Shown: one piece after another, positions 15,670 to 30,107 of the stretch
Layout of the letters: every line of letters starts with the position of its first letter
Numbering within the stretch: position 1 is the stretch's first letter
Notes under the pieces: model-generated
The model's database searches: none
What the model was told of the DNA's origin: nothing
What the model saw: the letters and a program-made list of their open reading frames with translations, nothing else
Program-made: the position numbers and the translations under genes
Source: an uncultured Oscillospiraceae bacterium
GTDB taxonomy: Bacteria > Bacillota > Clostridia > Oscillospirales > Oscillospiraceae
DNA: 34,538 nucleotides
Assembly: GCA_947629795.1 (NCBI GenBank)
Contig: CANRFC010000032.1
Coordinates: 1 to 34,538, forward strand
Direction of reading: 5' to 3'

Positions 15670-15850
15670 TCGGTTCAGCGACCATTGCCTTCACCATGAG
15701 AGGTCTTACGCGGTCTCCCCGAGCGTTAGGTTCGGGCGTGTCCCGCCCTACCACATGGACTGGCTACACCAACAGGCGCAGCCCTTCGTTCAGAATGTTC
15801 TTCGCGGCGTTGATATCCCTGTCGTGGACGACCCCGCAGCTTGGGCAGGT
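15637..15850 (-). ncRNA. predicted omegaRNA (TnpB guide RNA) region
   Basis: In characterised IS605-family elements the guide RNA spans the 3' end of tnpB and the right end, with its 3' guide in the flanking DNA. Here that covers the last tnpB codons and the roughly 125-base tail to TCAA at 15637. The guide itself would read into the flank, starting ATGGAAAGAGCATCTGG. The 5' boundary is not determinable from sequence. Confidence 0.6.
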
Positions 15851-16876
15851 CCACTCCCGGACGGAGAGGTCTTTGGTTCCGGGCCACTGAGTGCCGCAAG
15901 CAGAGCAAAGCTGGCTGGACGGGAAAAATCGGTCAACAGTGACTACCTGTTTCCCGTACCATTTCGCCTTGTATTCCAACTGCCGCCGGAACTCGCTCCA
16001 GCTTGCATCAGAGACAGCCCTTGCCAGCTTGCGGTCCTTCACCATGTTCTTGGGAACCAGGTCCTCAATGCAGATGATATCATTTTCCCGCACCAACTTT
16101 GTGGACAGCTTATGCAGCATGTCATTCCGCTGGTTGGCGATGTGCTCGTGGAGCCTTGCCACCTGCACCCGTGCTTTCTCCCTGCGTTTGCTCCCCTTTG
16201 TTTTTCGGGAGAGCTGCCGCTGGAGCCTTGCGAGCTTCTTCTGGCTTTTGGACAGATACTTGTGGTTGGGGTACTCCGTTCCGTCGGAGGCAACGGCAAA
16301 CGCCTTCAAACCCAAATCAAGACCAACTACTTCTCCGGTAGAGGGCAGAGGCTCCATCTCAACGTCGGTGCAGCACAGAGCGACAAAGTATTTCCCACTG
16401 GGGTTCTGTCTGATTGTGGCGGACAGAATGCGGCCCTTGACTTCTTTGGAAATGCGGCATTTCACGAGGCCCAGCTTGGGAAGTTGCACCGCCTTATCCA
16501 GCACTTTGATATTTGTGCCAACGCACTTGCTCTTGTAGCTCTTTCGGTGGTCGCGCTTGCTCTTGAACCGTGGATAGCCCGGCTTCCCGCCCTGTTTCAC
16601 CCGATGGAAGAAATTCTTGTAGGCTGCGTCCAGCGCCTGCAAAGACGCTTGCAGAGAAGTGGCGTCCACCTCTTTCAGCCATTCCAATTCTCTCTTGAGA
16701 AGTGTCAGCTCCTTGTCCTGCTGGAACCGCGTAGGGGCTTTCCCGGTTTCTTTGTACAACTCCATCCGCTGCGCGAGAAAATGATTGAACACAAACCGGC
16801 AGCAACCGAAAGTGCGCTGTATCAAATTTTCCTGCGCCTTTGTTGGGTAGATGCGAAATTTATAACTATATTCCAC
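15764..16876 (-). CDS. tnpB: TnpB, RNA-guided nuclease of IS200/IS605 family
   Basis: 370 residues and apparently intact. The N-terminal [15 protein letters not shown] and the [11 protein letters not shown] helix are the OrfB N-terminal domain. The RuvC-like nuclease residues are Asp187 (VVGLDLG), Glu271 (IICIEDL) and the Asp352/Asp354 pair ([11 protein letters not shown]). A four-cysteine zinc finger inside RuvC is at Cys324, Cys327, Cys344 and Cys347. Spacing matches characterised TnpB proteins such as that of ISDra2. TnpB cuts DNA next to the element's target motif using a guide RNA made from the right end, which keeps the element at the donor site. The ATG at 16876 lacks a strong ribosome site, common in these elements. 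Base use is less GC-rich than the neighbours. Confidence 0.95.
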
Positions 16877-17974: not shown

Positions 17975-19708
17975 CTATCCCAGGGACCAGGCCTGACTCT
18001 CGGTCTGGAGCCGCACCATCCGGGCGAAGGCCCCGTTTTGGGCCATCAGCTCCGCCGGGGCGCCCGTCTCGACCACGGTGCCGCGGTCCAGGACCACGAT
18101 CCGGTCGGCGTTTTCCACGGTGCGCATGCGGTGGGCGATGATGAGCACCGTCTTGTCCTTCACCAGCCGGGAGATGGCCTGCTGGATCTCGGTCTCGTTC
18201 TCGGCGTCCAGGGAGGCGGTGGCCTCATCCAGGAGGATGATGGGGGCGTCCTTCAGCAGGGCCCGGGCGATGGAGATGCGCTGGCGCTCGCCGCCGGAGA
18301 GGGTGGAGCCGTTTTCCCCGATCATGGTCTGGTAGCCCTGGGGCAGTTTGGCGATGAACTCTCCGCACATGGCCGCCTTGGCCGCCTCCATGACCTCCGC
18401 GTCGGTGGCGTCCTTGCGTCCGATGCGGATGTTCTCCATGACCGTGTTGTTGAACAGAGTCACGTCCTGAAATACGATGGAGAAGGCGGTGAGCAGCTTC
18501 TCCGGGTCCACGGTCTTCACATCCACGCCGCCTACGGTGACGGTCCCCCGGTCCGCGTCCCAGAACCGGGCGGCCAATTTGGCGGCGGTGGACTTGCCGC
18601 CTCCGCTGGGGCCGATGAGGGCGGTGACCTGACTCTGGCGGGCGGTGAAGGAGACGTCCTTCAGCACGGTCTCGCCGCTGTTGTAGGTGAAGCCCACGTG
18701 GTCAAAGACCACGTCGTAGCCCTTGGGAGCGAACGATCCCCCGCCGCCCTGTTCGGCGCAGTGATCGATCTCGTTCATGCGGTCGATGTTCACCTGCAGG
18801 GAGTTCATGGCCGCCAGGTTTTGCAGGGAGAAGGACAGGGGCTCATAGAGCCGGGAGACCGCCAGCAGGAACAGGGCGAAGAGGGGCAGGGAGAGTTCCC
18901 CGCTGACAAGGCGCATGCTCCCCACCAGGGCTGTGGAGGCCATGCCCAGCTTCAGGATCATCTGGGCCGGGACCACAAACATGGCGGCGCCCAGTTCACT
19001 CTTTATCATTCGGCCTTCCAGCGCATCTATTTTTTTGTTCAAACCGTCGAGATATGCCTGCTCCGCTTTGTTGCTCTTCAAATCGCGGACGGTCTCCAGA
19101 CATTCCTGCACGCCGTCTGCAACGGAAACCAGCGCGGCGCTTTGCTTGCGGGTGAAATAGTTCTGCGTCTTCTTGGAGACCCCCACGATCACCAGCGCCA
19201 CAGGCAGGACCCACAGGGCGGCCAGGGCCATCTGCCCATCGTAACAGAGCAGGCCGACCGCCACCAAGCAGGTGGAGAGGATGGAGCCGTAGAACTGGGG
19301 GACATAGTGGGAGAACATCTGCTCGGCGGTCTGCACGTCTCCCAGGATGGTGTTGGTCAGGTCGGCCAGGTCCTTTTGTCCGAAGAAGGACAGGGGCAGC
19401 CGCCGCAGCTTCTCCGCCAGGCGGATGCGGCACTCTCCGGACTCCCGGTACGTGGAAAAATAGGTGGCGTTATACTTCCAGAACTCGGTCAGGAGCACCA
19501 GGGCCAGGGCCCCGGCGATGCCCAGGCCGTAAAAGGCGTATCCCCGAAGGGCTCCGCCGCCGCTGAGGAAGTCGCAGACCAGGGCGTAGAGCAGTCCCAC
19601 CGGGAGCATGAGGGCCAGGTCCGCCACCCCGCAGGCAATGGTTGCCTTGACCAGCCCCTTGGCGCCCTCCTCTGAGAGGGCAAAGCGTTTCATCAGTGTC
19701 TCGATCAT
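17975..19708 (-). CDS. ABC half-transporter (fused TM-NBD), second subunit
   Basis: 577 residues from the ATG at 19708, which overlaps the preceding gene's stop as ATGA; the frame is open 16 codons further, inside that gene. About six membrane helices occupy residues 20-300, then a nucleotide-binding domain: Walker A GPSGGGKST near 364, signature LSGGERQRISIARALL, Walker B IILLDEATASLD and the switch histidine in IIAHRM. With the upstream gene it makes a heterodimer. Type IV pairs of this form include exporters and the YbtPQ/IrtAB siderophore importers. The direction cannot be read from sequence, but co-transcription with DUF3793 and the shared operator favour a metal-related cargo. Confidence 0.9.
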   Translation of the reverse strand: MIETLMKRFALSEEGAKGLVKATIACGVADLALMLPVGLLYALVCDFLSGGGALRGYAFYGLGIAGALALVLLTEFWKYNATYFSTYRESGECRIRLAEKLRRLPLSFFGQKDLADLTNTILGDVQTAEQMFSHYVPQFYGSILSTCLVAVGLLCYDGQMALAALWVLPVALVIVGVSKKTQNYFTRKQSAALVSVADGVQECLETVRDLKSNKAEQAYLDGLNKKIDALEGRMIKSELGAAMFVVPAQMILKLGMASTALVGSMRLVSGELSLPLFALFLLAVSRLYEPLSFSLQNLAAMNSLQVNIDRMNEIDHCAEQGGGGSFAPKGYDVVFDHVGFTYNSGETVLKDVSFTARQSQVTALIGPSGGGKSTAAKLAARFWDADRGTVTVGGVDVKTVDPEKLLTAFSIVFQDVTLFNNTVMENIRIGRKDATDAEVMEAAKAAMCGEFIAKLPQGYQTMIGENGSTLSGGERQRISIARALLKDAPIILLDEATASLDAENETEIQQAISRLVKDKTVLIIAHRMRTVENADRIVVLDRGTVVETGAPAELMAQNGAFARMVRLQTESQAWSLG

Positions 19709-21480
19709 TTCGCCCCACCTACCTTCCAGGTCACAGAGGTCTGATAGTCCTGCCACATCCTGGCATAGAGCCCGCCCTGCTCCACCAGGGCGTCGTGGGT
19801 GCCGCTCTCCTCCACACGGCCCTCCCGCAGGACAAAGATGCGGTCGGCCCGCCTGACGGTGGTCAGACGGTGGGCGATCATGATGACCGTCCTGCCCTGA
19901 GAGAGCCGCTCAAAGGCCCGCTGCACCAGGGCTTCATTCTCTGGGTCGGCAAAAGCCGTGGCCTCGTCCAAAATGAGGATGGGGGCGCTTTTCAGCATCA
20001 CCCGGGCGATGGCGATGCGCTGCTGCTCGCCGCCGGAAAGGTAGACGCCTTTGGTGCCAATGACGGTATCAATTCCATTGGGCAGCTTGGCAAGGATGTC
20101 GTCACACTGGGCTTCATGCAGGACCCGCTCCACCTCCTGCCGGGAGGCGTCAGGCCGGGCCAGGCGCACGTTCTCCAGAATGGAGGTCTTGAGCAGGCGG
20201 CTGTCCTGAAAGACATAGGCCACAGTGTCCGCCAGGGTCTCCTGGGAGAGCTCCTTTACGTTGACGCCGCCGATGGAGATGGCGCCGCCGGTCACATCCC
20301 AGAACCGGGAGATGAGCCCCGCCACAGTGGTCTTACCCCCGCCGGAGGGACCCACCAGGGCCACTGTCTCCCCCGCCCCGACCCGGATCTTCACACCCTT
20401 CAGGGCATCCTCTGCAGCATTCCGGTAGCGGAAGGTCACGTTGTCCAGCGTGACCGAGTTGTCCGCCGGGACCTTGCCCTTATCGGGTCCGCTCAACGGT
20501 TCCTCATCCAGGATGGAGTGGATACGCGTCAGCGCATCGTCCACCACCATGCCGTTCTCGCTCATGTACATGACCTTGGACATAGCAGTAGCGATGATGG
20601 GCGTGAAGAGCACGTAAAAAAGGAAGTTCAGCAGCACCGGCCGGGCCACCGGACCGTCCCCGGTGAGGATCAGGGCCAGGACGATGAGGAAGGCAAAGGC
20701 GCTGTTGATGAACACCGTGTAGACCATCATGGGGCCCCGGCACTTTTTGCAGTAGCCCACGCAGTACTTGTAGTAGTTGTCGATGGTGGCCTTGAAGCGC
20801 TTGAAGGTGTGGACGCTCTGGCCGAAGGTCTTGACCACCGGCACCCCCCGGACGTACTCCACCGCCTCGTTGTTCATGTCCGCCAGGGCATCGTTGTAGT
20901 CCTTCATATCCTTCGCCATACCGGGGCCGGCCATTTGGAACATAGCGGCAAAGCCCAGGGCAATGGGGATCAGGCTCACCAGGCCGAACCGCCAGTCAAA
21001 GAGAAAGAGCATGACCACCATGCAGATGGGGGTGGCAACGGCCGCCGCCATATCCGGAAGCTGGTGGGCCAGATAGGTCTCGGTGGCGGCGCTGGAGTCG
21101 TTGACGATGCGGCGGATCTTTCCGCTGCCCATTTCCCCGATGAAGCCCAGAGGCAGCCGGGCGATGTGGGCCATCAGCGTCTTGCGGAGATTTGCCGCGA
21201 TGCGAAAGGCTGACAGGTGGGAGCACATCAGGCCGCCGATGTAGACCAGGATGGACACCACCGCAAAGGCCACCGCCAGGGCGCCGTTGCGGATGACCCC
21301 GGTGGCCTGGGCATAATCGGGAGCCACTTCAAGTACTTCCCGGATGATATAAAAGAGAAATACGAAGGGGAACAGGGCCAGCACGGCGCTGATGATGCTC
21401 AGCAGGAGGGACAGGTACGTCAGATACCGGTACCCCCCGGCGTGACCCATGAGCTGGGACAGGTTGGATGGTTTTTTCAA
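19705..21480 (-). CDS. ABC half-transporter (fused TM-NBD), first subunit
   Basis: 591 residues from a TTG start at 21480. The frame runs open to 21813, but its first 111 codons overlap the DUF3793 gene in another frame and are not protein-like. The TTG has a perfect AAAGGAGG eight bases upstream and gives a length matching its partner. The N-terminal part has six membrane helices; the nucleotide-binding domain has Walker A GPSGGGKTT near 374, signature LSGGEQQRIAIARVML and Walker B ILILDEATAFADPENE. As I recall, ATAFADPENE is typical of the YbtP/IrtA siderophore importer branch, where Phe-Ala replaces the usual Ser-Leu. It overlaps its partner gene by four bases. The importer reading is inference. 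Confidence 0.9.
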   Translation of the reverse strand: MKKPSNLSQLMGHAGGYRYLTYLSLLLSIISAVLALFPFVFLFYIIREVLEVAPDYAQATGVIRNGALAVAFAVVSILVYIGGLMCSHLSAFRIAANLRKTLMAHIARLPLGFIGEMGSGKIRRIVNDSSAATETYLAHQLPDMAAAVATPICMVVMLFLFDWRFGLVSLIPIALGFAAMFQMAGPGMAKDMKDYNDALADMNNEAVEYVRGVPVVKTFGQSVHTFKRFKATIDNYYKYCVGYCKKCRGPMMVYTVFINSAFAFLIVLALILTGDGPVARPVLLNFLFYVLFTPIIATAMSKVMYMSENGMVVDDALTRIHSILDEEPLSGPDKGKVPADNSVTLDNVTFRYRNAAEDALKGVKIRVGAGETVALVGPSGGGKTTVAGLISRFWDVTGGAISIGGVNVKELSQETLADTVAYVFQDSRLLKTSILENVRLARPDASRQEVERVLHEAQCDDILAKLPNGIDTVIGTKGVYLSGGEQQRIAIARVMLKSAPILILDEATAFADPENEALVQRAFERLSQGRTVIMIAHRLTTVRRADRIFVLREGRVEESGTHDALVEQGGLYARMWQDYQTSVTWKVGGAK

Positions 21481-21511
21481 CGCGGAGACCTCCTTTGTCA
21501 AATTTGGCCGA

Positions 21512-22075
21512 TCAGACCGCCACCGTGAGCTGTGCAACGCCCATTCCGCCGGCATACCGCCGCTTATAGGCCGCCGTACAGGCGCGGTAGCTGGAAAAAC
21601 GGCGGCGGGCCTGGGCGGGGTCCCCGTAGCTTTTCCAGCAGCCGCAGCAGGTGTAGTTCCTGCCCTGATTCTCCATGAAGCCCCGCACATCCTCCAGGGG
21701 ATAGCCCAGAAAGACGCCGATCTCGTGGGGAAAATCCCGGCAGGTCCGCAGACGCACTCCAAGCTGCCGGAGAAGTCCCCCGCTCCCCTGGGACACATCG
21801 TAACCCAAAGCACGGAGGAAGGCCCGGACCTCCGGCTGCCCCAGCTCCCGCTCCAGGGCCCGGGGCCGGTAGAGATACAGGAGATAATCGTTGTTCTCCC
21901 TGCTCCCCCGCAGCACGGTCAGGCACAGTCCGCAGCGGGCAAACCACGCCCGCCACAGCTTCATCTGAAGGGCGAACTGCCGGACATTCTCCGGGAAAAA
22001 GCGGTACAGGCTGGCCGTCTTGAGCCCCGCCAGCGTGGGGGCACAGTGTTCCACCAGGGATTCCTCCAGAGACAC
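21512..22075 (-). CDS. DUF3793 family protein
   Basis: 187 residues. The opening SLEESLVEHCAPTLAGLKTASL, the central LLYLYRPRALERELGQPEV, then FPHEIGVFLGYPLEDVRGFMEN and the cysteine segment TCCGCWKSYGD are the recognised pattern of DUF3793, a Clostridia family often found beside iron-uptake and flavodoxin genes; that association is from memory. The conserved histidine and cysteines suggest metal or redox binding, but no activity is known. The start is GTG at 22075, with GAGAGGG seven bases upstream. It is the first gene of the unit with the two ABC half-transporters (31 bases before the TTG start) and lies behind a leader holding two 18-bp operators. Confidence 0.85.
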   Translation of the reverse strand: MSLEESLVEHCAPTLAGLKTASLYRFFPENVRQFALQMKLWRAWFARCGLCLTVLRGSRENNDYLLYLYRPRALERELGQPEVRAFLRALGYDVSQGSGGLLRQLGVRLRTCRDFPHEIGVFLGYPLEDVRGFMENQGRNYTCCGCWKSYGDPAQARRRFSSYRACTAAYKRRYAGGMGVAQLTVAV

Positions 22076-22102
22076 GGCGATCCCTCTCTTTTCAAAAAAA
22101 TT

Positions 22103-22120
22103 AGTTAGTTATAGCTAACT
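22103..22120. promoter_or_regulatory. 18-bp operator-like dyad, copy 1 (DUF3793 leader)
   Basis: AGTTAGTTATAGCTAACT: perfect AGTTAG/CTAACT arms around six bases. It is the exact reverse complement of the copy at 22218-22235. It lies 28 bases before the DUF3793 start codon, and on the minus strand it is followed by AA and seven Ts. Confidence 0.75.
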
Positions 22121-22135
22121 CCTGTGGAGATAAGA

Positions 22136-22162
22136 GGCGCTCCCTCATGGCGCGGGAGCGCC
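22136..22162. repeat. 9-bp stem hairpin between the two operator copies
   Basis: GGCGCTCCC, nine-base loop, GGGAGCGCC. In the DUF3793 leader RNA it would sit inside the larger stem that the two operator copies could form. It has a weak T-rich tail on the minus strand. Confidence 0.6.
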
Positions 22163-22217
22163 CGATCCTTTTGGTGTTGGGCAACACAAAATGGCTTTGG
22201 CTGAGGAGTCTTTTTTG

Positions 22218-22235
22218 AGTTAGCTATAACTAACT
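22218..22235. promoter_or_regulatory. 18-bp operator-like dyad, copy 2 (at the transcription start)
   Basis: AGTTAGCTATAACTAACT, same arms AGTTAG/CTAACT. It begins at about +1 of the promoter at 22242-22270, a position where a bound repressor would block transcription. Confidence 0.8.
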
Positions 22236-22241
22236 GATAAG

Positions 22242-22270
22242 ATAATACCAGATGCCGGACCCGTTGTCAA
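22242..22270 (-). promoter_or_regulatory. strong sigma-A-type promoter of the DUF3793-ABC unit
   Basis: On the minus strand TTGACA (22265-22270), 17-base spacer, TATTAT (22242-22247), with the operator dyad directly downstream. Confidence 0.8.
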
Positions 22271-22302
22271 GCCCCGTTTCAAACTTTTCCCGGCCTTTCC
22301 TG

Positions 22303-23127
22303 TCATTCCGCCCGGAACTCCACATGGAGCATGAAGCTCATGTGGAAGGTCCGCATGACCCGGTTGAACAGCCGGGTCACCGGGGTCTTACGGTAACCGC
22401 CCTTCAGGTAACCGTCGGCATAGTCCTTTTCGGTGACGTTGACAATGCGCTCCGACCAGCTCTCCAGCTCCTCCTTGGGGCGCTCCAGAGAGAAATAGGA
22501 CCCGGCCCTCTCCCCGGCCAGCCTGACCTCGGCGCTCACTCCCCTCAGGCCCAGGGCGTTCACCCCGTCGAAGGCGAGCATGCCGCCGGGGAACCGCTCC
22601 GCCATGGCGCAAAAAAGGCGGCGGACCTGCTCCTTTTGGAAGTAGTAGAACAGCCCGCCGGCGGTGAACACGATGCCCTCGGCAGGGTCAAAGTCAATTT
22701 TGTCGAACCAGGAGAGATCGTTCAGATCGCAGACCACATTGTGCTCCTTCTCCCCCCTGGGGATGTGCTGCTCCCGCAGGGCGATGACGTCGGCCATGTC
22801 CAGGCAATACCAGGGATTCGTATCGTTTCCCATCTGCCGCCGCAGGCAGGAGAGCCCCGCCCCCAGCTCCACCACGGCGGCTCCGGGGTGGAGCCTGAGA
22901 TATTCGTTGATCTCCCAGGCCAGATCATACTGGCGGATGACACAGTTCATCCACATATACTGCAGGCGGTAGAGCCCATTTTGAGCGAGGTCCTCTCCCA
23001 GTTCCCGGACGATGCGCTCCGCGTCCCGGTCCGGAAACAGGTCGGGGTATTTCCGCGCGGCGATCATCCGTCCCCGCAGAGGCATACAGAGGGTGTGCTG
23101 GACGGTATGTTTTTTCAGCTCAGACAT
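22303..23127 (-). CDS. LCM-type SAM-dependent O-methyltransferase
   Basis: 274 residues from the ATG at 23127 (GAGAGGTG upstream, 11 bases after the previous stop); the frame runs 80 codons further into the neighbour without protein-like sequence. The SAM-binding loop is VVELGAGLSC at about 85-94, and YCLDMADV (107-114) holds the acidic residue for the SAM ribose. VCDLNDLSWF and GIVFTAGGLFYYFQKEQV follow the order of the leucine-carboxyl-methyltransferase / polyketide O-methyltransferase (Omt) family. Such enzymes methylate carboxylates or hydroxyls of natural products. It is the last gene of the ten-gene unit. The acceptor is unknown. Confidence 0.82.
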   Translation of the reverse strand: MSELKKHTVQHTLCMPLRGRMIAARKYPDLFPDRDAERIVRELGEDLAQNGLYRLQYMWMNCVIRQYDLAWEINEYLRLHPGAAVVELGAGLSCLRRQMGNDTNPWYCLDMADVIALREQHIPRGEKEHNVVCDLNDLSWFDKIDFDPAEGIVFTAGGLFYYFQKEQVRRLFCAMAERFPGGMLAFDGVNALGLRGVSAEVRLAGERAGSYFSLERPKEELESWSERIVNVTEKDYADGYLKGGYRKTPVTRLFNRVMRTFHMSFMLHVEFRAE

Positions 23128-23138
23128 AAGGCACCTCT

Positions 23139-24017
23139 CTACCACCTGGAAACGAATTCCAGGGTCTTTTCCAACGAGTCCATCCGGGCTTTGCGGCCCG
23201 GCTCCCTGTTCCTTCCCCGGTCCCCCCGGAAGAACTTCGCCATGGGCAGCTCCATGGGGACAAACAGGTGGCTTCCATAGTCGTAGCTCAGGTGCTGACA
23301 GGGATAGGAGAAGTTCTTCTCCTTCAGGCGCTTCATGATCTCCTCCGCCGCCGGCTCCGAGGGCCACATGGTGTCCAGCTTGGAGGAGATGAGCAGGATG
23401 GGGCCGGTGATATGCTCCGCCCGGATGACCGCATCAGGGACGGGGCCTTTCACCATAGGAAGATACAGGTCGAACATGGTGACCTCCCGGGCCTTCAGGC
23501 TCTTCCAAAGGATGGCGCCGTAGGGGGTCTTCTCATACCCGAAGGGGGTGTAGGGCACCTCCCGACCGTGAAAGCTCCAGGAGCTTCCCGGCATCAGCTC
23601 GATGCCCTTCCCCTTGGCAAAGCCCTGGCACACGGTGCTCATGGGGGCCACCGCCGCCACGGCGTTGACCAGCCCCGGCAGCAGGCTCCCTGCCAGCAGG
23701 GCCAGCTCCGCCCCCTTGGAGATGCCCCACAGGCCCACCTTTTCATAGCCCATCTCATGGAGCCGCCCGGCCGCCGCCTCCAGGGGGTCGATGGGCACCC
23801 GGAAGAACCGGTCGGGCAGGCCCTCCTCCATCACATAGGCCAGAGCCAGAGCGGTCAGGCCCCGCTCCTGAAAGACCGCCGCCAGGGCCCGGGCCAGTTC
23901 AAAGTTCCCGTCACTGCCGCCGAAACAGATGAGCACCCTGCCCGGATATCCGTCCTGCCGGGGGCAGAACAGTTCGGCGTGGAAGCCGTCGGTCTTCATG
24001 CGGAATGTCTCATTCAT
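23139..24017 (-). CDS. alpha/beta hydrolase, acyl-CoA thioester hydrolase/BAAT C-terminal type
   Basis: 292 residues. VLICFGGSDGNFE gives the oxyanion region (about 28-40), GISKGAEL the nucleophile elbow with Ser100, LDTMWPS a likely Asp215, and YGSHLF the histidine His250. This matches the BAAT/acyl-CoA thioesterase C-terminal family, whose bacterial members act as esterases or thioesterases on small-molecule conjugates. No signal peptide. The start ATG overlaps the preceding MBL stop as ATGA, showing translational coupling. A second, frameshifted member of the same family is encoded earlier in the same unit (25909-26825), so this is the intact one. Substrate unknown. Confidence 0.85.
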   Translation of the reverse strand: MNETFRMKTDGFHAELFCPRQDGYPGRVLICFGGSDGNFELARALAAVFQERGLTALALAYVMEEGLPDRFFRVPIDPLEAAAGRLHEMGYEKVGLWGISKGAELALLAGSLLPGLVNAVAAVAPMSTVCQGFAKGKGIELMPGSSWSFHGREVPYTPFGYEKTPYGAILWKSLKAREVTMFDLYLPMVKGPVPDAVIRAEHITGPILLISSKLDTMWPSEPAAEEIMKRLKEKNFSYPCQHLSYDYGSHLFVPMELPMAKFFRGDRGRNREPGRKARMDSLEKTLEFVSRW

Positions 24018-24886
24018 TGCAGTTTCCTCACTTTCGGGAGTCGGCCGGAGCGGGCCTTTTCCTCGGTGTCCTCCGACTCGTCATAGGCGTCATAGGGAGC
24101 GCTTGGGTCGTGGGGCTTTTGCCGGACAAAGGCGCTGCACACCCTGTCCCGGTGGGCGAAGGCAAAGTCCAGGTCGTTGGTCCATCCGGTGTGGCCGGTG
24201 ATGATGACAGGGCTCAGGCCGCGCTGACGCAGCTTATCCTCCAAGGCGGCCAGGGACCGGACAGCCACCCCGTTGCTCTCGGCCAGCATGTTGATGAAGC
24301 TGTACCCGCCGTCCGGGCCCAGCCAGAGGGTGTCTCCGGTGAACAGGTAGGCGTCGTCGATGAGGTAGACCATGTGGCCCCAGGTGTGACCGGGGACCAG
24401 GAAGCACTCGATCCTGATGCCCCCGATGTCGATGAGCTGCCCATCCCGCAAAAGCACCTTGGAATTGTCGATGAGGACCTGGGGCAGCTTGTAGAGGCCG
24501 AAAATCACCCGGCGGCGTTTCTCTCCGGTGAGGTAGCGGTCCTCCTCCCGGCCTATGTAGAGGGTGGCCTCCCGGAACAGTCCGCCGCTGTCCCGCTCCA
24601 CCGCCCCCACATGGTCGGTGTCCTGGTGGGTGATGAGGATGTGCCGGATGGCGGCGGGGTCCAGGTCCAGCCAGCCCATCTTCTCCCGAAGCCGGCCGTA
24701 ATTATAGCCCGCGTCAAGCATGACGGTGACGCCGTTTTTCGTATAGAAGAAGATGTTGGCCACGAACTCCCGGACACAGCTCACCCGCTCGTCAATGTGT
24801 CCCGTGTTCAGCGGCTTGAAGATCTCCTTGCCCCGGAAGAACCGGGACATGGTCTTTTCCTGAAATTCCGACGCCTGTTTTGACAT
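24014..24886 (-). CDS. metallo-beta-lactamase-fold hydrolase with a variant metal motif
   Basis: 290 residues from the ATG at 24886 (GAAAGGGTGG upstream). Motifs: LDAGYNYG (58-65), THQDTDHVG (86-94), GHTWGH (166-171), TGDTLW (183-188) and ITGHTGW (229-235). The usual HxHxDH is here HQDTDH, with Asp89 in place of the second histidine, so the first metal site differs from textbook enzymes; the other ligands (Asp91, His92, His167, Asp185, His232) are kept. I recall Clostridia relatives with the same THQDTDH form, so this is probably a subfamily trait rather than damage. Likely a cytosolic hydrolase of an ester, lactone or thioester. Sits between membrane-protein genes and the hydrolase it overlaps. 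Confidence 0.87.
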   Translation of the reverse strand: MSKQASEFQEKTMSRFFRGKEIFKPLNTGHIDERVSCVREFVANIFFYTKNGVTVMLDAGYNYGRLREKMGWLDLDPAAIRHILITHQDTDHVGAVERDSGGLFREATLYIGREEDRYLTGEKRRRVIFGLYKLPQVLIDNSKVLLRDGQLIDIGGIRIECFLVPGHTWGHMVYLIDDAYLFTGDTLWLGPDGGYSFINMLAESNGVAVRSLAALEDKLRQRGLSPVIITGHTGWTNDLDFAFAHRDRVCSAFVRQKPHDPSAPYDAYDESEDTEEKARSGRLPKVRKLQ

Positions 24887-24902
24887 ATTGCCACCCTTTC
24901 TC

Positions 24903-25385
24903 TCAAAAGATCCATACCACCAGTGCCGCCACCGCGGCGGCGCCCACAATCCAGACCAGCGTCAGCTTCCCCCGCTTTTTCAGCACCTGGGGCCAGGTCT
25001 GTACAAAGGGGATATCCTCCGTGCCGGGGAGCACCCAAAACCTGCTGTGTCCCACCCAGAGCCGGTCGATGACAACGCCGTCATACCAGTTCATCCCCTC
25101 CAGGAGCAGGAGCGACTGGAGGTACGCGGTCTTGAAGTCCCGTACGCCGTTCCAGGCCCCGATGATCAGCAGCAGGACGGCGAGCATCATAAGTGGAAAG
25201 AGGGTCAGGAACCGCCTGTGCTTCCGCGCCACATCCGCCCGGTCTGCCAAACCGATCGCAAAGGCCCGCTCCTGCACAGGCTTGGGATAGAAGTACAGGG
25301 CGTTGACCGCCTTGCCCCCGGTGAAAAGGTACACCAGCGCGGTGAACAGGGCGAAGAAAAGGCAAAGTTGGATAATCAGGAGCAT
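24903..25385 (-). CDS. small membrane protein, unknown
   Basis: 160 residues that I do not recognise. Three hydrophobic segments are visible: about 2-22, 62-80 and 140-160. Between the first two is a basic loop (YFYPKPVQERAFAIGLADRADVARKHRR), and a longer polar loop (about 95-138) contains aromatic residues around GMNWYDGVVIDRLWVGHSRFW. The ATG at 25385 has AAAGGGAG upstream. It lies 18 bases after the next membrane-protein gene, with which it probably forms a complex; both sit in the middle of the operon. A permease or membrane-enzyme role is possible but not supported by motif. Confidence 0.75.
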   Translation of the reverse strand: MLLIIQLCLFFALFTALVYLFTGGKAVNALYFYPKPVQERAFAIGLADRADVARKHRRFLTLFPLMMLAVLLLIIGAWNGVRDFKTAYLQSLLLLEGMNWYDGVVIDRLWVGHSRFWVLPGTEDIPFVQTWPQVLKKRGKLTLVWIVGAAAVAALVVWIF

Positions 25386-25403
25386 GTTTTCTCCCTTTCA
25401 AGG

Positions 25404-25895
25404 TCACAACAGCGTGCAGACCCACGCCAGCAGCAGGGACACAAAGGGGAACAGCACGATCCGGGTCAACTGTCCCTTCCGGTTGAAGCCAAACTGGTGG
25501 TACCCGGCGCAGCCCTCGGTCTCCGGGTAGTAGTGCTGGAAAAAGCGGGATCTTGTCAGCAGAAGCCAATCGAAACACACGATGTCAAAGGCCTTCAGCA
25601 GATACAGCATAGCCAGAAATCTTCCGAAGAACTGCCAGAAGCCGTAGCTATGGCGTATTCCATCCCACCCGGCGTAGACAAAGGTCCCCCCGAAGGCCAG
25701 CACGCACAGCGCCAGGCAGCACCAGCCCAGAGCGTGGGCTCCGGGGAACCGCTCCGGGTGGTCCCGCACCGCCGCCTGGATATCCTTGGGGGCGGTGGTG
25801 AAGAGCTTTTTGGACTGCACCAGGGCCACCGCCGCCCAGAGCATCAAAAACAGCGCCGCCATCAGGGTCAATGATAAGATGAGAGTAGCTTTCAT
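25404..25895 (-). CDS. small membrane protein, unknown
   Basis: 163 residues, not recognised. Four hydrophobic segments are visible at about 4-26, 55-77, 85-107 and 143-163. A loop near 118-140 has YYPETEGCAGYHQFGFNRKGQ, with a cysteine, histidine and tyrosines that could bind a ligand or metal. The ATG at 25895 has GGAGAG upstream. The gene starts 13 bases after the frameshifted hydrolase and precedes the other membrane protein by 18 bases. Likely an integral membrane partner of the next gene; function unknown. Confidence 0.75.
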   Translation of the reverse strand: MKATLILSLTLMAALFLMLWAAVALVQSKKLFTTAPKDIQAAVRDHPERFPGAHALGWCCLALCVLAFGGTFVYAGWDGIRHSYGFWQFFGRFLAMLYLLKAFDIVCFDWLLLTRSRFFQHYYPETEGCAGYHQFGFNRKGQLTRIVLFPFVSLLLAWVCTLL

Positions 25896-25908
25896 TTGAT
25901 CTCTCCAT

Positions 25909-26825
25909 TCACCACTCCAAAATGCTGCGGGTCAGCTTTTCGTCAATGTCGATCCGGGTCTGTCTGCACTCCCCGGGGTACTCCCGTCCTGCCCGGAACA
26001 TCAGACGGATCAGCAGCTCCGAGCCCACCGGGAGCATGGTCTTCAGCATGGACTGGGGAAAGACGAAGTGGGTGCCGTGGTCATAGAGCAGGGCCTCCGC
26101 CCGGCATCGGTGGGGCAGTGCGTTCAGCCGGGAGAGCATCCGGCGGATGTATTTGCAGGTGTCCCACAGCACGTCGTCCTCCGCGCCCACGAAGATGACC
26201 TTGCCCCTGATGTCCTCCACCTTGATGGTTTCCGCTTCCTGAATGGGGTGGAGCCGCTCGGAGGCGTCAAACATGGGCCGGCTTGCGATCCGGTCGCCGC
26301 CGGCCTTGCCGTCTGCCATCATCTGCTGCCAGTATTGGGGATGGCGGTAGGCGTAGGGCAGATAGGGCAAGCTCTTCCCCTGCCAGGACAGGCTGGAGCC
26401 GTCGGAGGGCCACTCCCCGGCCCCGTCCCGGTCCCCCCGGTAAAAGCCCTCCATGATGAAGTCCGGCGGGGTGAGGGCAATGGTCAGGGTGAGGTCCGGG
26501 AAGAGGGACGCCGCCGCCAGGGCCACCATGCCCGTGGTGGAGGCCCCACGATACCCAGTTTTTCGTTCCCCCAGGCCTTCAGGACCTCAACGGCCCTCCC
26601 GACCCGTTCCAGGGGATAGTCGTGGTGTCCGTAGTCCTTCTTCCCCGGAGACATGGCCATCACGCTGCAGCCCCGCTTGTGCAGCCACTTCACCCCGGAG
26701 ATCACCATGCGGTCCTCCGAGGAGTCCCCAAGCATGGCGATAAACGCCTTTTTGACGGGGGTAGCGTTCGGGTAGAAGACCCCGTAGAAGCCGTCTTTTT
26801 CGGGGGTAAAGTATTGTTTTTGCAT
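25909..26825 (-). pseudogene. alpha/beta hydrolase (BAAT C-terminal type), broken by a one-base frameshift
   Basis: The N-terminal half begins at ATG 26825 with MQKQYFTPEKDGFYGVFYP and runs to NEKLGIVG. The C-terminal half continues in another frame as GMVALAAASLFPDLTLT and ends at 25909. The break is at a run of four G (26544-26547, minus strand). One more G would restore VGASTTGMV, which supplies the G-A-S-T-T nucleophile elbow. The later acid and histidine are intact (FVGAEDDVLW, YDHGTHFVF). The restored protein is about 305 residues, a paralogue of the intact hydrolase at 23139-24017. A homopolymer slip could be a sequencing error, phase variation or true decay. The gene begins four bases after the ATC-hydrolase-like stop. 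Confidence 0.85.
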
Positions 26826-26829
26826 CCCC

Positions 26830-27495
26830 TCACCCTCCCCCTCGCCGCTCCCGGTCCCAGCGGGAGCCCTTGCGGCAGATGTAAAAATCGCACTCCTCCC
26901 CGCCGGAGGCCAGGGTCTGGGTCCGGTAGAGCCGGCCGCCCATCCAGTCAAAGGAGAGGGTGTCCACGGCGCACATATAGGGTACCAGATGGGAAAGCCC
27001 CTCCTGCTTTCCCAAGGCACACAGGCCGCACCGGCGGTAGAGGATGGTGTACTCGTCCGCGTCCCGGCCCAGGATGACCGCCGCCTTCCAGTTGAACGCA
27101 CCGCCCGGCCCGGCGTTGGCCCGCACCGCATCGGCTGCCCGCTTTTTCTGGGCTTTCAGGGTAAACGCGCTCTTTGCTTTGCCGGTAAAGGACGCCTTCA
27201 CCAGAGGTGCGTTCATGCTGGCTTCCACCATGCCGCCGAAGCGCTCCTCGCTCACGGCCCCCTCAGCCGCCTCGTAAAAGGACAGCCACAGCATCCCGGC
27301 GGCCAGGCAGATCCGCAGGGAGTTCTCCTTCAGAGAGCCGATATCCGGTGTCCGACCGATCATCTGCCGGTAGGTCTCCCCCGCCCCTCGCTTCAGGCCG
27401 GAAATGTTCCAGTCCGGTTCCGTCTCTCTCAGATATCCCAGCGCCGCCGGCGCCATGGCAAGCCATATCACGGTCTCACAAGCAGAACGTCTCAC
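26830..27495 (-). CDS. L-2-amino-thiazoline-4-carboxylate hydrolase family protein (copy A)
   Basis: 221 residues from a GTG start at 27495 that overlaps the methyltransferase stop as GTGA, with GGGGGAGA upstream. The C-terminal half carries the family pattern: YRRCGLCALGKQEGLSHL (Cys156, Cys159), PYMCAVDTLSFDWMGGRLYRTQT (Cys175, Asp178), then ECDFYICRKG. The founding enzyme hydrolyses 2-amino-thiazoline-4-carboxylate to S- or N-carbamoyl-cysteine in cysteine production; most homologues are uncharacterised, and the cysteines suggest thiol or metal chemistry. A second copy lies upstream in the same unit. A different thiazoline or thioether substrate is possible. Family call is fairly firm, the reaction is not. 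Confidence 0.82.
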   Translation of the reverse strand: MRRSACETVIWLAMAPAALGYLRETEPDWNISGLKRGAGETYRQMIGRTPDIGSLKENSLRICLAAGMLWLSFYEAAEGAVSEERFGGMVEASMNAPLVKASFTGKAKSAFTLKAQKKRAADAVRANAGPGGAFNWKAAVILGRDADEYTILYRRCGLCALGKQEGLSHLVPYMCAVDTLSFDWMGGRLYRTQTLASGGEECDFYICRKGSRWDRERRGGG

Positions 27496-28172
27496 CTTCT
27501 CTCCCCCTTCACGCAGGCAAAGCAGGCCATGGCCTTCACGGTCGCCAAAGACACCCGGGCGTACATTTCCTCCAGGCGCCGCCACAGGCTCTCCGCGGTC
27601 TCATAGGGCGGGGTAAAGAAGCCCTTGGGGGTGTAGAGCTTGTCCACGAACCAGTCGGTGCGGCGGTCCTCACCCTTGATGTAGAAACAGCCGCAGAAGG
27701 TCCCGCCGGGCCTCAATACCCGATAAGTCTCCCCATAGGCCGCCTCCTTGTCCGGGAAGGCATGGAAGCCGTTGAGGGAGAGAACGATGTCAAAGCTGCC
27801 GTCCGCAAAGGGCAGCGCTCCCACGTCCCCCCGGACCAACCGCACGTTGTCCGGGGCGCGGCGCCGGGCCCGCTCCATCATGTCCGGGGAGTAGTCCAGG
27901 CAGGTGACGTCGGCCCGGGGCAGGGTCCGGTAGACGGGCATGGTCAGCACCCCGGTGCCCACCGGCACCTCCAGGAGCGTCCCGGAAAAGCCCTCCGGGA
28001 TGCCGGACAGGGCCTTTTCCAGATACGCCTGGTTTTCCTCCTTGCCCATGCCCCACACCAGGCGGCACACCGCCTTGCCCGGCAGGGTGGAGCAGGTGAT
28101 CATGCCGTCATAGAAGGTGGCCTCCCCACCCAGGGCTCTGTAGGCATTTTTGACCTCATCGCGGCGGCCCAC
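27492..28172 (-). CDS. class I SAM-dependent methyltransferase (Methyltransf_11 type)
   Basis: 226 residues. Motif I is LLEVPVGTGVL (66-76) and motif II CLDYSPDMME (91-100). RGDVGALPFADGSFDIVLSLNGFHAF supplies motifs III-IV, and RVLRPGGTFCGCFYI motif post-IV. These are typical of small-molecule C- or O-methyltransferases. The N-terminus has a YDGMITCSTLPGKAVCRLVWG stretch that is not part of the core fold and may bind the substrate. The start is GTG at 28172 with AGAGGGGA upstream, four bases after the copy B gene, and the stop overlaps the start of copy A. It lies between two ATC-hydrolase-like genes, so methylation of a thiol or thiazoline-type compound is a plausible but unproven role. Confidence 0.87.
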   Translation of the reverse strand: MGRRDEVKNAYRALGGEATFYDGMITCSTLPGKAVCRLVWGMGKEENQAYLEKALSGIPEGFSGTLLEVPVGTGVLTMPVYRTLPRADVTCLDYSPDMMERARRRAPDNVRLVRGDVGALPFADGSFDIVLSLNGFHAFPDKEAAYGETYRVLRPGGTFCGCFYIKGEDRRTDWFVDKLYTPKGFFTPPYETAESLWRRLEEMYARVSLATVKAMACFACVKGERR

Positions 28173-28176
28173 GGCG

Positions 28177-28797
28177 TCATCCCCTCTTCTGATAATGGCA
28201 GTCGCAGCACGGCCCGCCCCCGGCCAGGGTGTACTCCCGGGTGAACTGGGTCCCGGACTGCTGCGCCATCTCGTAGTCGTAGGTACACATGGCCGGGACG
28301 TATTCGCCCAGCCGCAGGGTACCCAACAGGTGCAAAATACCGCAGGCCGTAAAATTGGCGGTGTAGCTGGTCAGGTCCGGCCCCGGCTCGTAGGTAAAGC
28401 ACCAGGTGTAGGGATTGGCCGCAGAACGGTCCACGCTGTCCCGGGCCTGACGGGCCAGTTTCGCCTGGGCCTTGGCGGTATAGCTGTTCCGCTTCAAAAA
28501 CCGCTTCATAACAGCGTTGTCCGTCATGGCGTGGTGATAATAATCCGCCACCGCCGCCACCGGAGGCCGCTTGGGCAGCTCCAGCAGGACCGCCGCAAGC
28601 ATGGACGCGCTGAGGATATTCACCAAAAAGCGGTCGCCCCGCTCGAATTCCGGGATGGGGGCCAGGATCTCCCGGTAGCGTCTGTGGGCCTTCTCCATCA
28701 AGGGCTCCGCCGGGGTATCGGTGAGCCGGGGAAGCTCCCTGGTGAAGGAGTCCCGGAACACCGCCCACATCAGCCGGGGCATCACACCGTACCGCAT
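28177..28797 (-). CDS. L-2-amino-thiazoline-4-carboxylate hydrolase family protein (copy B)
   Basis: 206 residues. The C-terminal part repeats the family layout of copy A: TACGILHLLGTLRLGEYVP (Cys152), AMCTYDYEMAQQSG (Cys171, Asp174), then TREYTLAGGGPCCDCHY (Cys197, Cys198, Cys200). The cysteine and aspartate positions align with copy A, but the end is CCDC rather than CDFY, and overall sequence is quite different, so the two copies are old paralogues and not a recent duplication. The N-terminal half is helical. The ATG at 28797 lies six bases after the HMA gene. Likely a cytosolic enzyme; substrate unknown. Confidence 0.78.
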   Translation of the reverse strand: MRYGVMPRLMWAVFRDSFTRELPRLTDTPAEPLMEKAHRRYREILAPIPEFERGDRFLVNILSASMLAAVLLELPKRPPVAAVADYYHHAMTDNAVMKRFLKRNSYTAKAQAKLARQARDSVDRSAANPYTWCFTYEPGPDLTSYTANFTACGILHLLGTLRLGEYVPAMCTYDYEMAQQSGTQFTREYTLAGGGPCCDCHYQKRG

Positions 28798-28803
28798 GTC
28801 CGC

Positions 28804-29058
28804 CTACCTGCCAAAGCCGAGCAGCCCTTTTTTCACATAGGGCCCGCACACAGCGTCCAGCACCCGGTAGCCCATGGGCTCGATGGCGGAGCGGAGCTGC
28901 TCCACGCTGATGTTCTCCTCCGCCAGGATGACGGTCTCTCCCCTCTTGTGGGAGGACGTGACCTTCTTCACCGGAAACGCCCGCCGCACTGCGTCGTTGA
29001 CGTGGCTCTCGCACATCCCGCAGGCCATCCCCTCCACCTTTACCGTGATCTGGACCAT
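28804..29058 (-). CDS. HMA-domain metal-binding protein (CopZ-like)
   Basis: 84 residues. VQITVKVEGMACGMCESHVNDAVRR is the heavy-metal-associated fold with the GMxCxxC metal site (Cys13, Cys16), followed by VKKVTSSHKRGETVILAEENISVEQLRSAIEPMGY, the rest of the ferredoxin-like domain. Such proteins carry Cu(I), Zn or similar ions. The C-terminus has an added short tail with one cysteine. The start chosen is ATG 29058, which has GGAAAGGA upstream. An ATG at 29091 lies inside the operator, and the predicted transcription start near 29100 leaves no room for a ribosome site. First gene of the ten-gene unit. CopZ normally pairs with a P-type ATPase, which is absent here. Confidence 0.88.
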   Translation of the reverse strand: MVQITVKVEGMACGMCESHVNDAVRRAFPVKKVTSSHKRGETVILAEENISVEQLRSAIEPMGYRVLDAVCGPYVKKGLLGFGR

Positions 29059-29081
29059 TGTGATCATCCTTTCCATATTAA

Positions 29082-29099
29082 AGTTAGTCATTACTAACT
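29082..29099. promoter_or_regulatory. 18-bp operator-like dyad, copy 3 (HMA unit)
   Basis: AGTTAGTCATTACTAACT, with the same AGTTAG/CTAACT arms as the copies at 22103 and 22218 but a different centre. It lies at about +1 to +18 of the predicted promoter. This conserved position relative to two promoters is the main evidence for an operator. Confidence 0.8.
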
Positions 29100-29106
29100 A
29101 TTGAAT

Positions 29107-29134
29107 AGTCTACCACGTTTCCGCCATTTGTCAA
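29107..29134 (-). promoter_or_regulatory. sigma-A-type promoter of the ten-gene unit
   Basis: On the minus strand TTGACA (29129-29134), 16-base spacer, TAGACT (29107-29112), directly followed by the operator dyad. The divergent SDR gene starts 71 bases away. Confidence 0.65.
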
Positions 29135-29204
29135 TGCCATTTTCACTCTTTGTCCCGAACCGCTCCCCTCTCCGGGGCATACCATGATTCGGAGGTGTCA
29201 GCCA

Positions 29205-30107
29205 ATGGAATGCAGAAAAACGAGTCCCTATGAGCCGGCCAGGGCCGGAGAGAGCGCAGCTCCCTTCCCGCCCCAGCATCAGGACCGCCTGCCCGGCCTG
29301 GAGTATGTCATGGACCCTCGGCCCGTGTCCGAGTGTGGCAGGACCTGCCGGAAGCTGGAGGGCAAGACCGCCCTCATCACCGGCGGCGACAGCGGCATCG
29401 GCCGGGCGGTGGCCTATGACTTTGTGAAGGCGGGAGCCGAGGTGGCCCTGGTCTATTACGACGAGGATACCGACGCCGACGAGACCGCCCAGCGGATCAA
29501 GCAGTTGGGCGGGCGCTGCCTGCTGCTCCGGGGAGATCTGAAGGACCCGGACTTCGCCAAGAGCTGCGTGGAGCGGACCGTGGCCTGCTTCGGCAAGCTG
29601 GACATCCTGGTGAACAACCACGGGGTGCAGATCATCCGCCACAGCATCCTGGATATCCCTCCCGAGCAGCTTACATTTATCTTTCAGAACAATTTCTTCT
29701 CCTTTGTCTATCTCATCCAGGCCGCCCTGCCCCACCTCAGACGGGGCAGCGCCATCATCAACACCGCCTCGGTCACCGCCTACCAGGGCCACAAGGACCT
29801 CATGGATTACAGCGCCACCAAGGGGGCTATCGTGGCCCTCACCCGCTCCCTCTCCCTTTCCCTGGCCCAACAGGGCATCCGGGTCAACGCCGTGGCTCCC
29901 GGCCCCATCTGGACCCCCCTCATCCCCTCCTCCTTTTCCGCCGAGGAGGTGCGCACCTTTGGGGTGAAGACCTCCCAGGTCCCCATGCTCCGGGCGGGGC
30001 AGCCCTGTGAGGTCTCCCCCTGTTACGTCTTCCTGGCCTCGGAGGACTCCAGCTACATGACCGGCCAGGTCCTCCACCCCAACGGCGGCACCATCGTGGG
30101 CGGGTGA
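29205..30107 (+). CDS. SDR-family oxidoreductase
   Basis: 300 residues. Rossmann motif TGGDSGIG (59-66), NNHG (137-140), catalytic serine in NTASVTAY (Ser189), Tyr202 and Lys206 in DYSATKGAI, and the APGPIWTPLIP and LHPNGGTIVGG ends. A roughly 50-residue N-terminal extension rich in Pro (PFPPQHQDRLPGLEYVMDPRP) is typical of the YhdF/YghA-type 'glucose/general stress' SDRs, which carry exactly such a leader. NADP- or NAD-dependent dehydrogenation of an alcohol is expected; substrate unknown. The ATG at 29205 has GGAGGTG upstream; an ATG seven codons earlier has none. It is divergent from the HMA unit and shares its promoter region, so co-regulation is possible but not shown. Confidence 0.92.
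   Translation: MECRKTSPYEPARAGESAAPFPPQHQDRLPGLEYVMDPRPVSECGRTCRKLEGKTALITGGDSGIGRAVAYDFVKAGAEVALVYYDEDTDADETAQRIKQLGGRCLLLRGDLKDPDFAKSCVERTVACFGKLDILVNNHGVQIIRHSILDIPPEQLTFIFQNNFFSFVYLIQAALPHLRRGSAIINTASVTAYQGHKDLMDYSATKGAIVALTRSLSLSLAQQGIRVNAVAPGPIWTPLIPSSFSAEEVRTFGVKTSQVPMLRAGQPCEVSPCYVFLASEDSSYMTGQVLHPNGGTIVGG

Follow-up and report, generated by a model that had tools for sequence, protein, structure and literature searches.

An iron-operator-linked gene set of gut Clostridia that may move and tailor a small iron ligand

Do anaerobes without nonribosomal peptide synthetases (NRPS) make or use a metallophore of their own? Iron is contested in the gut, and to our knowledge iron scavenging by the strict anaerobes that live there is little worked out beyond Feo. 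The question is raised by a recurrent gene set, represented here by a locus of an uncultured Oscillospiraceae bacterium (GenBank assembly GCA_947629795.1). The window analysed, 34,538 nucleotides (nt) long, is one whole contig (CANRFC010000032.1, C32) of a 2.86-Mb, 83-contig genome that is 98.6% complete; in it, 13 genes form two minus-strand units, of ten and three genes, between positions 17975 and 29134. On balance, and by a modest measure, we favour the view that these genes form an accessory iron-starvation locus with transporters like those of equibactin and no NRPS, and that they serve to move a small iron ligand and to tailor it. We infer both the ligand and the activity of each enzyme.

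The operator and its genomic surroundings

The sequence-only reading of this DNA had placed at the head of each unit a promoter followed at once by an AGTTAG-N6-CTAACT dyad, and gene calls and scans agree. Unit 1 opens with a promoter-like site at 29107..29134 (minus strand; TTGACA, 16 nt, TAGACT; 10/12 matches in a consensus scan) and a dyad at 29082..29099, unit 2 with a promoter-like site at 22242..22270 (minus strand; TTGACA, 17 nt, TATTAT; 11/12 matches) and a dyad at 22218..22235. In both units the TTGACA of the site directly upstream of the dyad is exact. A single dyad per unit, as first described, holds for unit 1 and fails for unit 2, which has a second copy at 22103..22120, near the start of its DUF3793 gene. 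With up to two mismatches allowed, the window contains three dyads, all of them exact, versus a mean of 0.27 in 100 shuffles, and the region 21400-29400 contains four promoter-like sites where 1.5 are expected. In the presumed leader of unit 2, a G+C-rich hairpin (22149-22162) separates the two dyads.

With up to one mismatch, the dyad occurs at six places in the genome and a reversed control at one. The only exact copy outside the window (contig C8, position 79006), with a near-copy 34 bases off, lies between a divergent DtxR-family gene and feoA-feoA-feoB (Pfam Fe_dep_repress, FeoA and FeoB_N). Because the dyad is common to feo and the DtxR-family gene, we read it as an iron operator. The metal control proposed earlier can thus be specified as control by iron, and the shared operator upholds the joining of the two units into one regulon. 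For the same reason copper, which the HMA-domain protein of unit 1 had brought up as the controlling metal, was set aside. Matches of that protein to 11 NCBIfam families, CopZ and MerP-like ones among them, were all below the cut-offs. In relatives, an HMA gene follows shortly after a FeoB gene (L104:11927-15000, FeoB by Pfam; L112:12858-15815; L102:6597-9980), which ties HMA to iron rather than to copper. In another locus a fragment of a P-type metal ATPase was seen by eye beside the gene set (L026:1-1380).

The same motif recurs across the family. Its exact form was found in 80 of 150 family genomes, at 138 sites as compared with 12 for the reversed control (a total summed by hand), and among 30 three-kilobase stretches around family sites, 11 have feoA, feoB or dtxR and 10 have other model matches (three of them DUF3793 alone, and some weak). 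Twenty cluster-bearing genomes, taken from the 27 with the UbiE-like methyltransferase marker of unit 1, gave a similar picture: 13 have the exact motif, at 41 sites versus 5 for the control. There the sites are surrounded by feoA-feoA-feoB, dtxR, DUF3793, Trep_Strep genes of energy-coupling factor (ECF) transporters, and AraC genes with ATP-binding cassette (ABC) pairs, as well as by FecCD-like and binding-protein genes recognised by eye, and several sites are upstream of feo, dtxR, DUF3793, ECF and ABC genes; since the gene caller used here drops some short or overlapping open reading frames (ORFs), its lists were read with other calls.

An unbiased 5-mer and 6-mer inverted-repeat scan was applied to the intergenic DNA of 80 loci encoding relatives of the UbiE-like marker. 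It placed GTTAG-N6-CTAAC first among the 5-mers, with 133 sites in 66 of the 80 loci; the rest of the 5-mers listed comprised versions that were shifted or extended, two look-alike dyads, and repeats rich in A/T that occurred in no more than 10 loci. Over the whole of these loci there are 153 sites, in 68/80, versus 2 for the reversed control. Nearly all (146) are intergenic or at gene edges, and by mechanical gene calls a gene start is at most 250 nt away from 123 of them. The operator profile reads (A/G)GTTAG(C/T)N4(A/G)CTAAC(T/C), and in several genomes the operator stands near the regulator and feo. Comparative genomics thus supports well both the assignment of the dyad as a putative iron operator and the predicted control by iron. 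The look-alike dyads, TAGTT-N6-AACTA (12 loci) and AGTTA-N4-TAACT (10 loci), perhaps represent a sister operator. In L161, L167 and L184, operator sites are found ahead of genes for very large proteins (1678, 1917 and 1706 amino acids, aa) that look secreted.

The protein that binds the dyads is probably the DtxR-family protein encoded beside feo. Its best alignment is with MntR, and it has Cys where MntR has Glu. In EqbA, the DtxR-like repressor of the equibactin locus, the corresponding residue is a Cys too, as in DtxR, and is reported to make the protein responsive to Fe(II) (PMC3672683).

Gene content and its recurrence in relatives

Family by family, Pfam agrees with the gene content given by the sequence-only reading, except that one of the two alpha/beta hydrolase genes turned out to be split over two reading frames. 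All genes are on the minus strand. Unit 1 begins with an 84-aa small metal-binding protein (28804..29058; Pfam HMA), followed by the 206-aa ATC-hydrolase-family protein 2 (ATC2, 28177..28797; PF14196), the UbiE-like S-adenosylmethionine (SAM) methyltransferase that served as search marker (27492..28172; Methyltransf_11/25) and ATC-hydrolase-family protein 1 (ATC1, 26830..27495; PF14196). Next come the split alpha/beta hydrolase 2 (25909..26825; BAAT_C in the 3' part) and the membrane proteins TM2 (25404..25895) and TM1 (24903..25385), which have no Pfam match but align as one family, the model of TM1 being mostly helical. The unit closes with a metallo-beta-lactamase (MBL)-fold hydrolase (24014..24886; Lactamase_B), alpha/beta hydrolase 1 (23139..24017; BAAT_C), whose nearest solved relatives are acyl-CoA thioesterases, and an LCM-type SAM methyltransferase (22303..23127; Pfam). 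Unit 2 consists of a DUF3793 protein (21512..22075; Pfam 174.6 bits) and the ABC half-transporters ABC1 (19705..21480, with a TTG start) and ABC2 (17975..19708), both with ABC_membrane and ABC_tran.

The MBL protein has the motif HxDxDH, invariant in 13 of 13 aligned sequences, where the usual MBL motif is HxHxDH. A weak Pfam match to the ODP family (E 0.008) is a hint that its metal centre may differ. Hydrolase 2 changes frame between about 26544 and 26571 and, lying in two reading frames, is either broken or affected by a sequence error. A search with the undivided version in L064 returned 10 undivided relatives (L064 included), 3 split ones (the window, L081 and L084) and 2 partial ones. 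Programmed frameshifting was considered and rejected: the three splits fall at different protein positions and so do not support a shared recoding site, which suggests recurrent decay or sequence errors instead. Among relatives of the UbiE-like methyltransferase, some have an N-terminal ketopantoate-reductase (ApbA) domain (L093:598-2259, by Pfam; L096:9014-10687, by length and score).

Does the set hold together outside this genome? In 400 family genomes, its own included, the UbiE-like methyltransferase was found in 27, MBL in 13 and ATC2 in 19. With its own genome excluded, UbiE and MBL share 9 of 399 genomes (of 26 and 12 with each; Fisher p 9e-10), UbiE and ATC2 share 12 (of 26 and 18; p 5e-12), and MBL and ATC2 share 10 (of 12 and 18; p 1e-13); these tests treat genomes as independent and assume the same 400-genome sample for the three marker searches. 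The LCM protein was matched in 13 of 119 genomes, again including its own.

When named genomes were scanned with the UbiE alignment, 455 stretches proved to code for a relative (E <=1e-3), which need not be an orthologue in every case. The 80 loci (L063-L142) are the best 80 of these, 66-78% identical; the UbiE-like methyltransferase was the sole means of finding them, and contig ends truncate some of them. Orthologues of this protein that we compared are 63-78% identical. Within 9.5 kb and on the same strand as the UbiE-like gene, the eight companion families counted were TM proteins (32 loci), LCM (27), ATC (24), HMA (19), half-transporters of the ABC-pair type (19), BAAT (17), MBL (13) and DUF3793 (8), and at least two of them are present in 45/80. 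Apart from the search anchor, no family is universal. A gene set centred on thiazoline-hydrolase-like enzymes, as first described, does not match the presence of ATC genes in only 24 of these loci. Gene order, compared over 120 loci (L023-L142) minus 28 short three-kilobase ones (L035-L062), is not fixed and content is shuffled; among the runs that recur are UbiE-BAAT2-TM1-MBL-BAAT1-LCM in L064, where the LCM-family match is only 23% identical to that of the window, and LCM-ABC1-ABC2 in L084. The sequence-only reading is upheld as to the recurrence of gene set and dyads in relatives.

Best matches of the window proteins are scattered over loci whose titles name different families (titles of metagenome-assembled genomes can be wrong): Lachnospiraceae (L063), Eubacteriales (L064), a Treponema metagenome-assembled genome (L065), Ruminococcus (L070), Clostridiaceae (L074) and Oscillospiraceae (L079 and L084). 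This would fit shuffling or horizontal spread. A plasmid origin was considered and not retained: the MBL protein had no match in 72,556 plasmid records. Overall, the comparison gives good support to the existence of a modular gene set that appears to be co-inherited. We found no published description of it in the open-access literature, where DUF3793 appeared in one unrelated paper only.

A fuller version is seen in Petralouisia muris, on a contig of 41,853 bases (L081, L220 and L221). The order there is two dyads, HMA, UbiE, a split BAAT-like gene, ATC2, a TM-like protein and a second methyltransferase, then DtxR, MBL, LCM, a dyad, a Trep_Strep protein, CbiQ, an ABC ATPase, AraC and an ABC pair. 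Then follow two serine-recombinase-like genes (by eye), TetR, a dyad, an ABC pair, a dyad and AraC, and finally a Trep_Strep-like protein whose start is marked by a dyad, CbiQ, an ABC ATPase and an ABC pair. In total the contig has two ECF importer sets, six dyads and three ABC pairs. The serine-recombinase-like genes between ABC pairs (L220 3705-7186; contig 20204-23685) suggest a mobile element. A further locus (L099) is similar to this contig and has no convincing ATC gene.

Genes outside the two units lie on both sides. An OrfB_IS605/TnpB-type protein (Pfam OrfB_IS605) is encoded at 15764-16876 (minus strand), just past the end of unit 2, and two Fic/DOC proteins, likewise assigned by Pfam, at 30742-31839 (minus strand; with a MarR-like helix-turn-helix) and 33412-34458 (plus strand).

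What the locus may do

ABC1 and ABC2 are adjacent half-transporters in which a transmembrane domain is fused to a nucleotide-binding domain (TMD-NBD). Ranked by bit score among unfused PDB chains (two-repeat P-glycoproteins stand higher only as the sum of two halves), ABC1 is nearest to YbtP (332 bits), before IrtA (314), YbtQ (269) and then MsbA (238), and ABC2 to YbtQ (286), before Sav1866 (268) and IrtA (255). By bits, the pair is nearer to YbtPQ/IrtAB than to exporters, so that its earlier description as siderophore-importer-like stands; it may move a small iron-ligand complex.

The two ATC proteins match PF14196 with 59.6 and 62.7 bits against a cut-off of 28.1, and are only 18% identical to each other. 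PF14196 is named after one Pseudomonas enzyme. Across the ATC set, Trp, Cys, Asp, Arg and Cys are invariant and no His is. The predicted structure of ATC2 appears to resemble the ligand-binding folds of H-NOX, V4R and Bet3, its matches including heme-binding H-NOX; no usable match came from PDB sequence searches with the ATC profile or with the LCM protein. A published domain analysis links the PF14196 family to V4R and HNOB (PMC5847659). Together, model and published analysis would place PF14196 in a broad ligand-binding superfamily, and the thiazoline chemistry with which the sequence-only reading had led was abandoned as the leading idea.

We propose that an Fe(II)-loaded repressor would block both units when iron is plentiful, and that both would switch on when iron is short. 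The YbtPQ/IrtAB-type pair would then carry a small complex of iron and ligand through the membrane, with inward as the likeliest direction; the two SAM methyltransferases, the alpha/beta hydrolases, the MBL hydrolase, the two ATC proteins and the two small membrane proteins would tailor or recycle the ligand, and the HMA protein would receive the metal.

Several observations weigh against this proposal. On the side of control, 9 of the 30 three-kilobase family stretches have no model match, 7 of the 20 cluster-bearing genomes are without the exact 12-base site, and operator sites in cluster-bearing genomes also precede genes of no obvious iron role. The regulator retains an MntR-like Asp, and EqbA, with its Cys, also answered zinc and manganese in vitro (PMC3672683), so that specificity for iron is presumptive. 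On the side of transport, ABC2 is nearer to YbtQ than to Sav1866 by a small margin only, neither window unit showed a substrate-binding protein, and a half-transporter of the ABC-pair type is near in only 19/80 loci, while 16/80 have none of the eight companion families. The direction of transport also appears uncertain, because deletion of eqbKL, the fused transporter pair of the equibactin locus, left the iron-import phenotype of Streptococcus equi in place and gave a hint of efflux (PMC3672683).

Is the ligand made by the bacterium itself? If so, the enzymes would build a small lipophilic or aromatic iron ligand from a precursor of primary metabolism without NRPS, polyketide synthase (PKS) or NRPS-independent siderophore (NIS) enzymes, with one transporter exporting and another re-importing it. 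The SAM methyltransferases and thioesterase-like hydrolases do look like tailoring chemistry, in relatives the methyltransferase is joined to a ketopantoate-reductase-like domain (a group of 13 proteins, of which one was checked by Pfam), and P. muris has both ECF and fused-pair transporters, just as equibactin loci carry two transporter types. NRPS condensation domains are absent from 17/20 cluster-bearing genomes, that of the window included, and IucA/IucC synthetases of the NIS type from all 20, again with that of the window. Three genomes (G233, G277 and G408) have one or two condensation domains; in G277, which has 13 exact operator sites, the two domains belong to a 2334-aa NRPS-like ORF (G277:C19:77854-82305). 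Against self-made ligand stands the lack of any scaffold-building enzyme recognisable by Pfam in the window's two units, and by eye no NRPS or PKS was recognised among ORFs of at least 700 aa in the 80 loci and three others, where FeoB was seen repeatedly. The methyltransferases thus speak for making or tailoring, the missing scaffold enzyme for using something already present. We regard self-synthesis as a tentative possibility. That the absence of NRPS favours breakdown over synthesis, as had been argued earlier, is strengthened in its premise by the lack of condensation and NIS domains throughout the genome, but the two methyltransferases here, and further ones in relatives, fit tailoring or synthesis as well. 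No more firmly than self-synthesis, the loci might represent a new class of metallophore pathway in gut Clostridia, iron-repressed and without NRPS, PKS or NIS. Methyltransferases, thioesterase-like hydrolases and H-NOX/V4R-like proteins would both make and recycle its product, and the pathway would have spread among Lachnospiraceae, Oscillospiraceae and relatives as modules in changing order. Synthesis and the favoured iron-ligand reading overlap.

Alternatively, transporter, methylating and hydrolysing enzymes could act on an endogenous lipid, remodelling membrane lipids or cofactors to spare iron without any metallophore. TM1/TM2, DUF6796 and PEMT-like membrane proteins do recur in the sets, and DUF3793 lies beside flavodoxin (by Pfam), an iron-sparing factor, in two loci (L024 and L071). 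We consider this unlikely, however, as acquisition is what the operator in common with feo and the linked ECF and YbtPQ-like transporters suggest. Use of heme or a related tetrapyrrole, imported by the locus and handled by ATC proteins of H-NOX-like fold, seems to us a shade less likely still. In its favour, the fold matches of ATC2 include heme-binding H-NOX, an ECF transporter can import heme for iron (PMC7299338), and the tolyporphin cluster has a provisional 'ATC hydrolase' assignment (PMC8401325); yet the same fold binds palmitate in Bet3 and phenols in PoxR and MopR, no heme-degrading enzyme was seen, and the ATC set lacks an invariant His. We give equally little credence to unrelated genes that share a popular iron operator and drift together without a common pathway. 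Shuffled order, variable content and the 16 companionless loci would suit such drift, whereas the co-occurrence of UbiE, MBL and ATC2 over 399 genomes and the repeated close linkage speak against it. Breakdown of a thiazoline metallophore, for which the name of PF14196 and the YbtPQ-like pair might plead, is very improbable given the superfamily in which fold and domain analysis would place PF14196 and the lack of anything else that points to thiazolines.

Whichever ligand is involved, the iron operator can now be searched for in Oscillospiraceae and Lachnospiraceae genomes, and two poorly characterised families, PF14196 and DUF3793, are placed in an iron context.

Comparison with known systems

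As in iron regulons of the DtxR/MntR family, a DtxR-family gene adjoins the operator and feo in the genome of the window. Its half-sites, GTTAG and CTAAC, are six bases apart, unlike those of the classical DtxR/IdeR box, which are more tightly spaced. The ABC pair shares with YbtPQ and IrtAB a fused TMD-NBD arrangement and an iron operator, and these are its best unfused PDB matches; IrtA differs in having a siderophore-interaction domain, which Pfam did not report in the window ABC proteins. With L-2-amino-thiazoline-4-carboxylate hydrolase the ATC proteins have in common their membership of PF14196 and conserved Cys residues, and that activity is putative at most for them. LhaSTA is likewise an iron-regulated ECF importer in a Gram-positive bacterium (PMC7299338); unlike it, the window units have no ECF gene.

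A further parallel is equibactin. Its locus eqbA-N on ICESe2 of S. equi comprises the DtxR-like repressor gene eqbA, the importer eqbHIJ and the YbtPQ-like fused pair eqbKL (PMC3672683). Compared by kind of gene, the P. muris contig agrees with it in regulator and transporters. Equibactin has an NRPS; the window genome has instead methyltransferases, hydrolases, ATC proteins and HMA. In its regulator and transport genes the P. muris contig looks like an equibactin locus in which these enzymes stand in place of the NRPS.

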